Origin: Roseomonas xinghualingensis
Lineage (GTDB): Bacteria > Pseudomonadota > Alphaproteobacteria > Acetobacterales > Acetobacteraceae
Length of the DNA: 64,000 bases
Assembly: GCF_025791835.1 (NCBI RefSeq)
Contig: NZ_JAOXLP010000017.1
Location: 1 to 64,000, forward strand
Direction of reading: 5' to 3'
Shown here: in pieces, positions 26,059 through 31,147 of the stretch
Numbering within the stretch: the first letter of the stretch is position 1
Layout: each line of letters starts with the position of its first letter
Made by a program: the position numbers and the translations under genes
The notes under the pieces: model-generated
The model's input: the letters and a program-made list of their open reading frames with translations, nothing else
Databases searched by the model: none
What the model was told of the DNA's origin: nothing

Positions 26059-27345
26059 ATGAACGCGATCGCCGATCCCGCGACGAATTCCGCCGCCATC
26101 GCCCGTGCCGCGCTGGAGGAGGCCACGACGGCCGCCCGCGCCGCCGCATCGATCCTGGCGCGTGCCCCGCGACCGGTGAAGGACCGCGCCCTGACGGAAG
26201 CCGCCGCCGCGCTCCGCGCCCGCGAGTCGGAAATCCTGGCCGCCAATGCCGCCGATCTGGCGGCTGCGCCTGAGCTGACGGACGCCTTCCGCGACCGCCT
26301 GACCCTCACCCCCGCCCGCATCGAGGCCATGGCTCGCGGGCTGGAAGACATCGCCGCTCTGCCCGATCCCGTCGGGCGCGTGCTGGCGGAATGGACCCGC
26401 CCCAATGGCCTCGTTATCCGCCGCGTGGCCCAGCCCATCGGCGTGGTGGGCATGATCTATGAAAGCCGCCCCAATGTGGGCGCCGACGCCGCCGGCCTCT
26501 GCCTGAAGGCCGGCAACCCCGTGATCCTGCGCGGGGGCAAGGAAAGCCTGAACAGCGCCGCCGCCATCCATGCCTGCATCCTCGATGGCCTCCGCGCCGC
26601 CGGGCTGCCCGAGGCCTGCGTGCAGGTCGCCCCGAACACGGACCGTGCCTTCGTCGGCGCCATGCTGGCGGCCGCTGGCAAGATCGACCTGATCATCCCC
26701 CGTGGCGGCAAGGGGCTGGTGACGCGGGTAATATCCGAGGCACGGGTGCCCGTGCTGGCCCATGCCGAGGGCCTCTGCCACACCTACATCCACGCCGCCG
26801 CCGATCCGGGGATGGCCCGCAGCATCCTGGCGAATGCCAAGATGCGCCGCACCGGCATCTGCGGCGCCACCGAAACCCTGCTGATCGACCGCGCCATTGC
26901 CCCAAGCCTGCTGCCCCTGCTGGTGCAGGACCTGCGTGCCCTGGGCTGCGACTTCCGCGCCGATGCCGCGGCCCGCGCCATCCTGCCGGACCTTCCCCCT
27001 GCCACGGAGGAGGATTTCTCTACCGAATGGCTGGATGCCATCCTGAACATCGCGGTGGTGGACGGGGTGGAAAGCGCGCTGGACCACATCCGTCGCCATG
27101 GCAGCGAGCACACCGAGGCCATCATCACCCAGGATGAGGCGGCGGCACGCCAGTTCCTCGACGGGCTGGGCTCGGCGGTGGGCATGTGGAACGCCTCCAC
27201 ACAGTTCTGCGACGGCGGGGAATTCGGCTTCGGCGCGGAAATCGGCATCGCCACCGGCCGCCTGCATGCGCGGGGTCCCGTCGGCCTGGAGCAGCTCTGC
27301 ACCTGGCGTTACCATGTGATCGGGAGCGGACAGACTCGTCCCTGA
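26059..27345 (+). CDS. proA: Glutamate-5-semialdehyde dehydrogenase (gamma-glutamyl phosphate reductase)
   Basis: The product has 428 residues from the ATG at 26059; the frame is open to 25999 but the extra residues are not family-like. Motifs include GMIYESRPNVGADAAGLCLK, NPVILRGGKESLNSA and RRTGICGATETLLID, with the catalytic cysteine in CGATETLL. The NADPH-dependent enzyme reduces gamma-glutamyl phosphate made by ProB in proline synthesis. It is divergent from the ABC importer, with about 145 bases between, and opens the downstream run proA, hydratase, nadD, rsfS, rlmH. Confidence 0.95.
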   Translation: MNAIADPATNSAAIARAALEEATTAARAAASILARAPRPVKDRALTEAAAALRARESEILAANAADLAAAPELTDAFRDRLTLTPARIEAMARGLEDIAALPDPVGRVLAEWTRPNGLVIRRVAQPIGVVGMIYESRPNVGADAAGLCLKAGNPVILRGGKESLNSAAAIHACILDGLRAAGLPEACVQVAPNTDRAFVGAMLAAAGKIDLIIPRGGKGLVTRVISEARVPVLAHAEGLCHTYIHAAADPGMARSILANAKMRRTGICGATETLLIDRAIAPSLLPLLVQDLRALGCDFRADAAARAILPDLPPATEEDFSTEWLDAILNIAVVDGVESALDHIRRHGSEHTEAIITQDEAAARQFLDGLGSAVGMWNASTQFCDGGEFGFGAEIGIATGRLHARGPVGLEQLCTWRYHVIGSGQTRP

Positions 27346-27392
27346 TCCGGCCCGCCACGGGGAACACCCGGGCTTCGGGAGGAGATCACAGC

Positions 27393-28262
27393 TTGCGCCG
27401 TATCGCGATCCTGGCCGCCGCCGCCCTTGCCATCCCCCTCGCCGCCCGGGCCGCCTGTCCGGACGACGCAGAGGTCGCGCGGCTTGCCGCCGATATCCTC
27501 GCCAGCCGCCCTGCCCAGGGCTATGGCGCGTCCCTGACCATGGAAGACGCCGTTTGTGCCCGGGAGAAGCTCGTGGCGCGCCTGTCGGAGCGGCACGGCA
27601 CGCCGGTGGGCTACAAGGTTGGGCTGACCAATGCGGCGGCGCAGCAGCGCTTCGGCGTGCCCAGCCCCGTACGCGGCACCATCTACCAGTCCACCATTCG
27701 CGCCCGCGGCATCGCCAGCGCACCGGCCGAGATCCCGGCCGCCTTCGCCGCCCTGCCCAATGTGGAGAGCGACCTTATCGTTCGCGTGCGTGACGAAGGC
27801 ATCAACGAGGCCGGCACCGACCACCTCGCCATCCTGCGCCACCTGGATCAGGTGATCCCCTTCATCGAGATGCCGGACCTGGTGCTGGCGCCCGGCCAGA
27901 TGAACGGCCCGAACCTCGTCGCCATCAATGTCGGCGCGCGCCTGGGCGTGCTGGGCGAGCCCATCGCGGTGCAGGCCACGCCGGAATTCGCCGCCCGCCT
28001 GGGCAGCATGACCGTCATCCTGGCCACCGATCAGAAGGAACTGTCCCGCGCCCCCGGCACGGCGCTGCTCGGCCATCCGCTGAATGTGATCCCCTGGCTG
28101 GTCGAGGACCTGAAGCGTGAGGGCAAGCGCCTGCGCGCGGGCGACATCGTCTCCCTCGGCGGCTTCTCCCCCGCCCTGCCCACCGAGGCCGGGCGCACCG
28201 TCACCGCCACCTATGAGGGGCTGGCCGATGGCCCCGTGACCGTCTCGGTGAGCACGCCCTGA
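27393..28262 (+). CDS. Secreted 2-oxopent-4-enoate hydratase/FAH-fold protein
   Basis: The product has 289 residues from a TTG at 27393, which has GGGAGGAG 8 bases upstream. The N-terminus is a clear signal peptide (RRIAILAAAALAIPLAARAA), so the protein should be periplasmic. The rest matches the MhpD-like hydratase branch of the fumarylacetoacetate hydrolase fold: VGYKVGLTNAAAQQRFGVPS, then VESDLIVRVRDEGINEAGTD and VTVTATYEGL-type ending. Cytoplasmic relatives hydrate 2-keto-4-pentenoates using Mg2+ bound by conserved acids (here E and D in the VESDL and DEG segments). A role outside the cytoplasm is not known to me. It sits between proA (48 bases) and nadD (37 bases). Confidence 0.8.
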   Translation: MRRIAILAAAALAIPLAARAACPDDAEVARLAADILASRPAQGYGASLTMEDAVCAREKLVARLSERHGTPVGYKVGLTNAAAQQRFGVPSPVRGTIYQSTIRARGIASAPAEIPAAFAALPNVESDLIVRVRDEGINEAGTDHLAILRHLDQVIPFIEMPDLVLAPGQMNGPNLVAINVGARLGVLGEPIAVQATPEFAARLGSMTVILATDQKELSRAPGTALLGHPLNVIPWLVEDLKREGKRLRAGDIVSLGGFSPALPTEAGRTVTATYEGLADGPVTVSVSTP

Positions 28263-28299: not shown

Positions 28300-29025
28300 A
28301 TGCCTCCCCCCATCCGCCTCAGCGATCAAACCCCGCCTTCACGTCCCCTGCCCGCGCATCACCAGCCCGGGTCCTGGGGAGACAGGCGGCGGGTCCGCAT
28401 CGGCCTGCTCGGCGGCTCCTTCAACCCGGCGCATGAAGGCCACCGCCACGTCGCCGAAAGGGCCCTTCATGCCCTGCGGCTGGACGAAGTCTGGCTGCTC
28501 GTTTCCCCCGGCAACCCGCTGAAGCCCCGCGCCGGGATGGCACCCTTCGCCGAGCGACTGGAATCGGCCCGCCGCATCAGCGACGGCCGCCGGATCATCG
28601 CCACCGACATCGAGGCCCGCCTTGGCCTGCGGGAGACGGAGCGCACCCTTTCGAGGCTGCGCCGCCGATTTCCCCGCGCCCGCTTCGTCTGGATCATGGG
28701 CGCCGACAATCTCAGCCAGTTGCCGCGCTGGCGCCGCTGGCGCCGCCTGGCTAGGCGCAACCCGATCGCCGTGCTTCCACGCCCCGGATGGACCCGCCGG
28801 GCGCTCCACGGGGCGACCGCCAGCGTGCTCCGGCATCACCGCCGCCCTTGCGGCGCGCTGCTGTCCGGTGCATCCGACATCCACGCCCGGTGGTGCATGA
28901 TTCCGGCGCGCGAGCACCCAGCCAGCGCGACCGCAATCCGCGCCCGGATGGCCCAGCGCGCAACCGCTGGCGGCGAACCCCATTCACCCTTCATCCTTCC
29001 CGCGGCGCCAGCCAAGGTCCGCTGA
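28300..29025 (+). CDS. nadD: Nicotinate-nucleotide adenylyltransferase
   Basis: The product has 241 residues. The nucleotidyltransferase signature GLLGGSFNPAHEGHRHVAER contains the HxGH ATP-binding motif, and WIMGADNLSQLPRWRRW is typical of NadD. It couples nicotinate mononucleotide to ATP, the step before NadE. The first 33 residues are Pro/Arg-rich and not conserved, so translation might begin later, but no better start codon with a ribosome-binding site is evident. It is followed by rsfS, the common bacterial arrangement. Confidence 0.92.
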   Translation: MPPPIRLSDQTPPSRPLPAHHQPGSWGDRRRVRIGLLGGSFNPAHEGHRHVAERALHALRLDEVWLLVSPGNPLKPRAGMAPFAERLESARRISDGRRIIATDIEARLGLRETERTLSRLRRRFPRARFVWIMGADNLSQLPRWRRWRRLARRNPIAVLPRPGWTRRALHGATASVLRHHRRPCGALLSGASDIHARWCMIPAREHPASATAIRARMAQRATAGGEPHSPFILPAAPAKVR

Positions 29026-29067
29026 ACCCCTCGCGCCCCGTGGCGCATCGACACAGGAGCCTAACAC

Positions 29068-30675
29068 ATGGCCCGAACCCCGAAGGCCCCGACCCGCACC
29101 CCCGCCACCCGCGCGACCGGTGCCCGCAAGGCCCCCGCCAGCCGCGCCGCCGCGCCGAAGCCCAGCAAGGCACCGGCTCCGAGCCGCACGAAGGCCGCCC
29201 CCGCCGCCTCCCGTGCGCCGGCCAAGGCCAAGGCACCGGCCCCGCAGCGCCTGACCAAGACTCCGGCCCGCGCGACGAAGGCCGCGCCGGCCCGCGTCAC
29301 CAAGCCCGCCGCCCCCGCGCGCGGCAAGCCGGCGGCAACCGCCACCCGCACGCCCCGCACCGCCACCACGACGGCCCCGCGCGCGACCAAAGCCGCCGCC
29401 GCCCCGGCCCGCAGCACGCGGGCCACGGCTGCCCCCGTCTCCCGCTCCAAGGCGGCCCCGGCCCGCACGACAAAGGCCGCGTCTGCCGCGCGCAGCACCG
29501 CCGCGTCCACGCGCAGCACCGCCAAGGCGCCCGCCGCGCGCACCACCACCACGCGCGCGACGAAGGCGGCACCGGCGCGCAGCTCCCGCGCCACCGAGGC
29601 CAAGGCTCCGCGCGCCACCGCGGCGAAGACCACCCGGGCTGCCACCAGCACCACCCGCGCCACGGCAGCGCGGGCGCCGCGCGCAACTGCGACCTCCACG
29701 CGCAGCGCGGCCACGAAGCCCGCGCGCACGGCCGCTACGAAGGCAGCTCCCCGTGCAGCCGCTGCGAAGGCCGCTCCGCGTGCTGCCGCCGCCAAGGCGA
29801 CTCCGCGCGCTGCCGCCACGACCAGGACACCGCGCGCCGCTGCCGTGACCCCCGCCGTCAAGGCGCCGGCCCGCTCCCGTACCGCCACCCCGCGTATCCC
29901 GGCCGCCGAGCCGGCGCGACGCGCCACGCGCGCGACCACGTCGGAGCGCGCCACGGGCCGCGCCGCCGAGGTCGTGGAGGCCAATGCCGCCCGCATCGCG
30001 GAGCTGGAGGAGGACACCGCCCCCACCCCGCGCAAGCGCGCCGCCGTCGCAGGCCCGAAGAAGCGCGGCCGCGCCGCTTCCCGCCCTGCCCCCAGCCCCG
30101 ACCGGCTGGAGGAGCTGGTCCGCGCCGCCGTCACAAGCCTGGAGGATGACAAGGCCGAGGACGTGCTGGTGCTGGACGTCGCCACCCGCTCCGCCTTCGC
30201 CGATCGCATGATCGTCGCCACCGGCCTGGCCGAGCGCCAGATCGAGGCGATGGCCCGCCATGTCGAGGAAGCGCTGGCTGAGCTCGGCATCCGCCGCATC
30301 CGCACCGAGGCCTCCCCGGACTGGGTGCTGCTCGATGCCGGCGACCTGATCATCCATCTGTTCAAGCCCGAGGCGCGTGCGAATTACGGGCTGGAGCGCA
30401 TGTGGGGCCCCGAGAGCCCGACGGCCGAGGAAGTCAGCATGCCGGAGCCGGCGGGCCAGTCCGAAGACGAGGATTCCATCGAGGACGAGTCCGTCACCAA
30501 GGGAGATGCCGATGAGGCCGGGGATGAAGTTGATTCCGCTGGCACCGGCCAGGGCGGCGACTCTGAGACCGTGAGCGAGGAGGTGATTCCGCGCGACGAG
30601 GTGCTCGACGGCCCTGCCGGCTTCACCCTCCACACCCCCGCCCAGGACCGCGACCAGGGTCAGGGCGAGGGCTGA
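29068..30675 (+). CDS. rsfS: Ribosomal silencing factor RsfS with long histone-H1-like N-terminal region
   Basis: The product has 535 residues. The ATG at 29068 has AGGAG 8 bases upstream. Residues of about 1-340 are almost only Ala, Arg, Lys, Thr, Pro and Ser, with irregular repeats such as [18 protein letters not shown]. They resemble a histone H1 tail. Residues of about 345-450 are the RsfS/Iojap domain ([70 protein letters not shown]). That domain binds ribosomal protein uL14 and blocks subunit joining. The last 85 residues are acidic. Ordinary RsfS is about 110-150 residues. The neighbours nadD and rlmH are the usual ones, so the domain call is safe. The role of the tail is unknown. Confidence 0.9.
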
Positions 30676-30679
30676 CGGG

Positions 30680-31147
30680 ATGGCGCCGCCTCTCCTGCTC
30701 GCCGTGGGCCGGGCCCGCGGCGGGCCCGAGGCGGCGCTGTTCGAGCACTATAATGCGCGCCTTCGCCCGCCCCTCCTCCTTCGGGAGCTGGTGGAGGCGC
30801 GCGGATCACCCGCCGAGATCCGGCGGCGCGAAGGCGCCGCCATCCTGGCGGCACTCCCCGAAGGGGCATTGGCCGTCGCGCTCGACCTGGGCGGCGAAAT
30901 GCCGGACAGCGAGCGCCTGGCCATGCTGACCGGCCGCTGGATCGAGGCTGCACGGCCCATCACCTTCATCATTGGCGGAGCCGAGGGGCTGGACGAGGCG
31001 GTGCTCGCCCGCGCCGATCACCGCATCTCTCTCGGCAAGCTCACCTGGCCGCATATGCTGGTGCGCGGGCTGCTGGCTGAGGCCCTGTTCCGCGCCCAGT
31101 GCATCCGCACCAACCACCCCTATCACCGGGCCTGGCGCCCGGGCTGA
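30680..31147 (+). CDS. rlmH: 23S rRNA pseudouridine-1915 N3-methyltransferase
   Basis: The product has 155 residues. This small SPOUT (knotted) methyltransferase shows [40 protein letters not shown] and the HPYHRAW C-terminus, which form the SAM-binding knot and the catalytic end. It methylates pseudouridine 1915 in helix 69 of 23S rRNA. It starts 4 bases after rsfS in the usual rsfS-rlmH pair. Its stop abuts the stop of the convergent ku gene with no gap. Confidence 0.94.

Follow-up and report, generated by a model that had tools for sequence, protein, structure and literature searches.

The rsfS gene of Roseomonas xinghualingensis raises the question of why a bacterial ribosome factor should carry a long basic arm in front of its domain and an acidic tail behind it, and where the translation of such a gene begins in this organism and its relatives. 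RsfS is a uL14-binding factor that prevents the joining of the 50S and 30S subunits. It occurs widely among bacteria, and mitochondria possess a counterpart. The window, meaning here the whole stretch of 64,000 nucleotides that was analyzed, contains the following features at this locus.

28300..29025, + strand: cytidylyltransferase-like upstream neighbor of rsfS (PF01467)
29055..29059, + strand: Shine-Dalgarno sequence AGGAG, 8 nt before the rsfS ATG, with a 16S-tail duplex energy of -6.6 kcal/mol
29068..29070, + strand: rsfS ATG start codon; ATA or ATC stands at the aligned position in most sampled relatives
29068..30099, + strand: polybasic low-complexity N-terminal arm, residues 1-344, by composition and charge
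30025..30057, + strand: motif, residues 320-330, by alignment the counterpart of TPRKKAxAGP in other Acetobacteraceae
30124..30405, + strand: RsfS domain, residues 353-446 (PF02410, TIGR00090)
30415..30672, + strand: acidic C-terminal tail, residues 450-535, net charge -23, with counterparts among the relatives L032-L038
30580..30621, + strand: 14-residue stretch near the RsfS C-terminus that includes LDGPAG, recurring in relatives
30680..31147, + strand: SPOUT methyltransferase, downstream neighbor of rsfS (PF02590)

The first-pass annotation had described an ATG behind a ribosome-binding site, one continuous frame, a basic region of about 340 residues leading into an ordinary RsfS domain and an acidic end of about 85 residues, and all of these stand. 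The frame (29068-30675, + strand) runs uninterrupted from its ATG over 535 aa, with AGGAG 8 nt upstream. PF02410 matches residues 353-446 with an E-value of 1.7e-25 and 89.5 bits against a cut-off of 21.6, its single match in the whole genome, and the NCBIfam equivalog TIGR00090 scores 93.2 bits, above its curated cut-off of 56.9. The 344 residues of the arm have a net charge of +67 and a pI of 12.0; the first 300 comprise 110 Ala, 55 Thr, 44 Arg, 36 Pro, 23 Lys, 18 Ser, 3 Glu and no Asp. Residues 345-449 carry a net charge of -9 and residues 450-535 one of -23 (pI 4.1). Near the C-terminus, LDGPAG is found in five of the seven relatives L032-L038 (L032, L033, L035, L037 and L038) and is absent from L034 and L036.

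The neighbors, which we take to be nadD (28300..29025) and rlmH (30680..31147), place PF01467 upstream and PF02590 downstream and so match nadD-rsfS-rlmH, the typical gene order of rsfS. Between an aldehyde dehydrogenase-family gene and nadD lies a 358-aa frame (27186-28262, + strand) with no Pfam match at E 0.01. A promoter and terminator scan returned nothing useful, and the RNA fold around the start has a z of -0.90.

A frameshift or assembly artefact was rejected as the source of the arm, since the whole of it is open in the same frame in five named relatives of Roseomonas type whose upstream DNA is complete. L032 (Roseomonas harenae), L033, L034, L036 and L037 each carry arm, domain and acidic tail in a single frame that starts MARTPK. 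The first pass had proposed a search of orthologues, with a tail found in no other genome and accompanied by frameshift signs as grounds for abandoning it; the search was run, and other genomes carry the arm. The open frame by itself was not taken as proof of coding because the opposite strand is open as well (28984-30633, 549 aa), and evidence from composition and codon positions was used instead. Over 254 aligned codons of the arm, the window and L032 differ by 0.32, 0.18 and 0.43 at codon positions 1, 2 and 3, with a dN of 0.317 and a dS of 0.654 on an alignment of low-complexity sequence that is rough. For the RsfS domain of the same pair, dN is 0.028 and dS is 0.395.

The composition of the window arm was compared with expectation over 298 codons, the start codon and the last 45 being excluded. 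Lys was observed 23 times against 3.2 expected, Arg 44 against 21.9, Asp and Glu together 3 against 10.8, and Asn, Gln, His and Tyr together once against 12.7. A pooled test covered the 26 long-armed proteins of the family, window included (4812 codons), and used the position-specific base frequencies of each arm, excluding the start codon and, where the arm exceeded 100 residues, the last 45 codons. Treating codon positions as independent and pooling relatives, it gave 566 Lys against 104, 543 Arg against 343, 138 Asp and Glu against 341, 40 Asn, Gln, His and Tyr against 289, and no stops against 12. Across these proteins Lys is about five-fold over, and Asp and Glu about 2.5-fold under, the prediction from base composition. 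Net charge rises with arm length (rho 0.93, 26 proteins). Base composition alone does not account for the charge pattern of the arm.

These figures bear on the view that the arm grew by repeat slippage in GC-rich DNA as a near-neutral low-complexity expansion, floppy and therefore tolerated, from which only harmful residues have been purged. The 26 proteins have arms of anything from 94 to 361 residues with little sequence conservation, as in sequence under low constraint. Short tandem DNA repeats lie inside the window arm (the longest 27 bp x 3.4 at 29731-29821), and dN/dS against L032 is about 0.5 in the arm and 0.07 in the domain, all of which would suit such an expansion. The excess of Lys and the shortage of acidic residues, which point the same way in each of the five arms shown singly, run counter to it, as do a net charge per arm residue that averages 0.20 (range 0.08-0.24, 26 proteins) and the fact that codon position 2 is the best conserved in the arm. 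Near-neutral expansion is thus possible but unlikely, and an arm whose basic character is kept by selection is preferred.

An internal start at about residue 310-345, giving a short RsfS, is unsupported by the sequence because a Shine-Dalgarno sequence accompanies just the first (-6.6) of the seven ATG, GTG, TTG, ATA, ATC, ATT or CTG codons that precede the domain, the rest being -2.0 or weaker. Used as a query for further such arms in the genome, the first 173 residues retrieved only themselves at E 0.001 among the 150 of 279 candidates scored. A simple scan for other basic arms in the window returned the rsfS arm only, and is of a kind that misses the shorter tail of Ku. The Ku protein in question (PF02735, 31148-32269, - strand) is a close neighbor of the basic-armed RsfS and has a short basic tail, KKRAPARKAPAARKAPARRSPARKAG.

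Across the Acetobacteraceae, 125 rsfS loci were examined and starts were called in 105, or 103 without two duplicates; 11 of the 20 uncalled loci are cut by a contig end, and the duplicate rows removed were L147, L153 and L176. The stretch before the domain has a median of 233 residues in the 26 long-arm loci (range 94-361) and of 61 in the other 77 (range 15-160, the upper end consisting of doubtful calls). The short extensions are mostly basic as well, and a looser form of TPRKKAxAGP precedes the domain in 75 of the 103 loci (64 of the 77 and 11 of the 26). In a midpoint-rooted FastTree tree of RsfS, RlmH and NadD pieces from 118 of 122 loci, drawn without support values, the 26 long arms, called with a MAR/IAR start, make up one branch, and on this ground the arm is read as an expansion in one lineage. 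Most of the Acetobacteraceae sampled have a basic extension of some 60 residues, and the arm looks like an enlargement of this older feature. Outside the branch, L013 probably represents a second, separate long basic arm; it has an ATC candidate at -12.5, and the automatic call there is an inner ATG.

C-terminal tails of at least 30 residues occur in 12 of the 26 long-armed proteins and in 1 of the 77 others. The acidic tail appears to be typical of the window's subclade and to have a narrower spread than the arm. It had been suggested at the first pass that the two ends might neutralize each other. As a rule this fails, both on the 12 of 26 count and in L157, L141 and L174: L157 sets an arm of +83 beside only 9 C-terminal residues, which indicates that the ends need not neutralize each other, and L141 sets +47 beside 14. 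What survives of the suggestion is that N-terminal and C-terminal net charges are negatively correlated (rho -0.53, p 0.005, 26 proteins, ancestry uncorrected), and in the window RsfS an arm of +67 faces a tail of -23.

Two further observations concern the distribution of the gene. A 2.1 Mb genome, G116, contains two rsfS copies with equal scores about 18 kb apart (L175 and L176, C1:1244623 and 1262412), a pair that may be a duplication or a matter of assembly. No PF02410 match was found in 9 of the 120 family genomes (G007, G031, G035, G052, G069, G074, G075, G098 and G113), which are mostly fragmented assemblies.

Structural data indicate where the arm would leave the ribosome-bound domain. 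RsfS binds uL14 and adjoins uL14, bL19 and helix 95 of the 23S rRNA (excerpt of PMC7125091). In PDB entry 28ye, a 152-residue RsfS chain (G) matches window residues 317-450, motif included, with an E-value of 1.5e-42, and chain V, a uL14, is the top PDB hit for the uL14 of this genome. Calling 28ye Acetobacteraceae-like is a reading from this sequence match. Its RsfS chain carries TPRKKAAAAGP. With its first residue some two positions ahead of the TAG of the motif, the chain may derive from a gene model that was cut short, and, starting just before the motif, it is uninformative about the arm.

The arm is most likely disordered and would help RsfS to hold rRNA or the 50S subunit. RsfS would dock on uL14 while the arm stretches over nearby 23S rRNA, so that free or maturing 50S subunits would capture RsfS more readily or keep it longer. 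For a +67 extension leaving the domain at the 50S surface, the simplest course would be to lie on rRNA and slow release. Where present, the acidic tail may temper off-target nucleic-acid binding. The arm is basic in kind, as the first-pass annotation said, and since its charge is kept beyond base composition in the 26 arms, its makeup appears compatible with nucleic-acid binding.

The nucleic acid could also be DNA, the arm chiefly serving to hold RsfS or RsfS-bound 50S subunits at the nucleoid, a link that the first pass had raised, and both a composition resembling histone H1 tails and the maintenance of positive charge over the 26 arms would accord with this. However, a Pfam search at E 0.01 matched neither linker histones nor any other family of DNA-binding proteins, and the acidic tail would make binding to DNA weaker. 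Known complexes, moreover, place the partner domain on rRNA, which makes rRNA the nearest target (excerpt of PMC7125091). A primarily DNA-binding arm is accordingly judged improbable, more so than a near-neutral one. The reading preferred here, with a probability of roughly 0.5, is that of an orthodox RsfS with a selected and probably disordered polybasic arm that would hold rRNA or the 50S subunit, an acidic tail, and membership of a clade that may have left an ancestral control by IF3.

The last element of this reading concerns start codons. Relatives mostly lack an ATG at the position of the window's ATG and instead show I-ARTPK or I-ARKPP, with an ATA or ATC codon and a Shine-Dalgarno sequence in front. 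Of 94 clear N-terminus calls, 85 are non-canonical (49 ATC, 34 ATA and 2 ATT) and 9 are ATG; nine other calls, doubtful or without the pattern, were kept apart (L009, L013, L017, L028, L029, L132, L146, L155 and L167). The best Shine-Dalgarno sequence was rejected as sole start caller, and a motif-anchored test was adopted, because by that rule nadD and rlmH, too, receive non-canonical starts (for rlmH, 14 of 32 strong cases). As an imperfect control, ATG, GTG or TTG lies near the expected N-terminus at 85 of 104 rlmH and 79 of 99 nadD loci of the family.

The motif-anchored test needs neither a start-codon list nor a Shine-Dalgarno sequence and reads the codon before.A[RK][KTSN]P at 122 loci. 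Exactly one such motif precedes the domain at 60 of them, where the codon before it is ATC in 33, ATA in 17, ATG in 3 and another in 7. ATN therefore stands before the motif in 53 of 60, against a background of 2.75% of codons, and 52 of these 53 have an energy of -5.0 or lower, against a background of 12.7% of positions. Several motif stretches occur at 19 loci, the first with a Shine-Dalgarno sequence having ATA in 7, ATC in 6, ATG in 4, AGG in 1 and none in 1, and at 43 loci no motif precedes the domain.

Within the long-arm clade, energies run from -10.2 to -12.5 in the 17 ATA/ATC genes and from -5.8 to -8.9 in the 9 ATG genes, with no overlap (rank test p 2e-5, ancestry uncorrected), and the ATG starts occupy at least three places on the tree. 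A strong Shine-Dalgarno sequence with a weak codon, as against a weaker one with ATG, is the pattern that would be expected of real starts tuned to similar output. In the window clade, AUG occupies the aligned position behind a weaker Shine-Dalgarno sequence, and L033, which was uncalled, has ATG-MARTPK with a weak one. The exceptions L154, L173 and L175, from small genomes, are apparently ATG-started.

A wider sample of 95 other alphaproteobacterial loci (the 30 best-scoring in a listing, 60 hand-picked from the same listing and 5 from another search) points to agreement with the Acetobacteraceae, more noisily. At an energy of -5.5 or lower, the best-placed codon is ATA, ATC, ATT or CTG in 67 of 73 cases and ATG, GTG or TTG in 6, CTG calls being the least secure and the rule itself noisy, as it gives 14 of 32 non-canonical for rlmH at the same loci. 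In 18 of the 95 class loci the searched stretch of rsfS contains no ATG, GTG or TTG. All 82 rlmH loci have at least one, and so do all 21 rsfS loci from outside the class, whose best codon is ATG in 10, TTG in 4, CTG in 3, ATT in 2 and ATC in 2. Applied to infC, the same rule gives ATA 21, CTG 5, ATC 3 and TTG 1 in 30 family genomes (L241-L270), and ATA 16, ATC 6, ATT 3, ATG 1, TTG 1 and none 2 in 29 class genomes (L301-L329). By this rule infC appears to begin with ATA in the majority of the Alphaproteobacteria sampled, and with CTG in a few relatives as well as in the window's own genome. In the window's genome (L245, near G000:C132:125580-125789) it reads CTG-ARGPMP at -7.4, and an in-frame ATG stands five codons on at -5.3.

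Could AUA and AUC nevertheless be unused, with other upstream or downstream starts in service and I-AR(K/T)P only a conserved internal stretch? The noise of the best-Shine-Dalgarno rule in the rlmH control would allow it, CTG is a common codon, and ATG, GTG or TTG occurs somewhere before the domain in 65 of the 85 non-canonical Acetobacteraceae calls. The other 20 have none down to the domain, as is the case for the searched stretch at the 18 class loci and at no rlmH locus or rsfS locus outside the class. The frequency of ATN before the motif also lies far above background, Shine-Dalgarno strength splits the ATA/ATC from the ATG genes in the long-arm clade, and infC, a known case of such starts, gives the same picture. 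Disuse of these codons is regarded as very improbable, and initiation at AUA and AUC in the relatives is preferred.

IF3 keeps the ribosomal subunits apart from the 30S side, and RsfS does so from the 50S side. The infC gene, with an AUU, AUC or AUA start, is under IF3 autocontrol, and Streptomyces sigR, with a GTC start, is repressed by IF3 (excerpt of PMC5472188). The S. aureus infC start is AUA (excerpt of PMC13009471), and that of E. coli rsfS is UUG (excerpt of PMC10917681). Like infC and sigR, the rsfS of the relatives has a non-ATG/GTG/TTG start behind a Shine-Dalgarno sequence and is often misannotated (excerpts of PMC5472188 and PMC13009471). Those genes are IF3-repressed and rsfS is likened to them by its start codon in the relatives, a likeness from which the window's rsfS, with its ATG, departs.

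By analogy with infC, alphaproteobacterial rsfS is proposed to be a second gene under IF3 control. Such control would be the ancestral state, which the lineage of the window would have left. IF3 would then set the level of RsfS, providing a translational link between two anti-association factors. In its full form, to which we give even odds, the proposal is that rsfS, beside infC, has a weak AUA, AUC or AUU (or CUG) start throughout the class through which IF3 would set RsfS, and that the Roseomonas clade has moved out through AUG and a weaker Shine-Dalgarno sequence, its RsfS possibly being IF3-independent and held on the 50S subunit by charge. The window clade carries one of the longest polybasic arms in the sample.

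The start codons also affect database entries. A search restricted to proteins of 294-936 aa returned 53 with an RsfS match, and 15 of these were read. Non-canonical start codons would explain why entries among them are too short, too long or combined with NadD. P0003 and P0004 start inside the arm when set against L033 and L037, as does P0002 against its near relative L032; the initial M of P0003, a Roseomonas RsfS, is the Ile codon of RIAELE in the L033 DNA, an internal ATC taken as the start. P0006, P0008, P0012, P0013 and P0014 start upstream and contain I-AR(T/N)P, P0015 joins NadD to RsfS with IARTPK inside, P0010 and P0011 start MARTPK, and P0005, P0007, P0009 and P0016 were left unplaced. 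The longest of the 53 entries is at most 475 aa, and the frames of the window clade are 504-647 aa. By a rough rule, nadD and rsfS share one open frame at 12 loci, seven in the Acetobacteraceae (L017, L029, L107, L120, L126, L132 and L146) and five outside (L073, L074, L190, L210 and L214), so that NadD-RsfS may be a real fusion at these loci, one that also has an internal start. Some database entries likewise give NadD and RsfS as one joined protein. Mis-modelled RsfS entries affect proteomic and structural work, the 28ye chain that starts just before the motif being an example.

The window protein shares its domain, equivalog score and gene order with the RsfS/YbeB/iojap family (PF02410, TIGR00090), to which it adds a 344-residue basic arm and an 86-residue acidic tail, the solved bacterial chains found being 105-152 residues long. 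MALSU1, the mitochondrial counterpart, has sequence before the domain too (the match to the domain starts at residue 95 of the 5ool chain and at residue 202 of the 6yxy chain). The N-terminal parts of these chains are likely to include targeting sequences. Likeness of the arm to histone H1 and bacterial H1-like proteins is one of composition only, as Pfam at E 0.01 matched RsfS alone. Mosquito RPS6 has a histone H1-like C-terminal extension, judged convergent by its authors, and resembles the window RsfS in being linked to the ribosome and in having a low-complexity tail of H1 type, but it is a eukaryotic ribosomal protein with the tail at its C-terminus, and no common descent is claimed (excerpt of PMC548281). 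RsfS itself is already known; in the titles and abstract openings of the open-licence papers listed, no prior description of its basic arm or of AUA/AUC rsfS starts was found.

The arm would thus be an H1-like tail on a bacterial ribosome factor, and it can be compared with that of mosquito RPS6. If the proposed control by IF3 is true, the link between rsfS and infC would be hard-wired and hidden by gene finders. If rsfS is read from IF3-sensitive starts throughout the class, subunit anti-association in Alphaproteobacteria would come under one translational rule.
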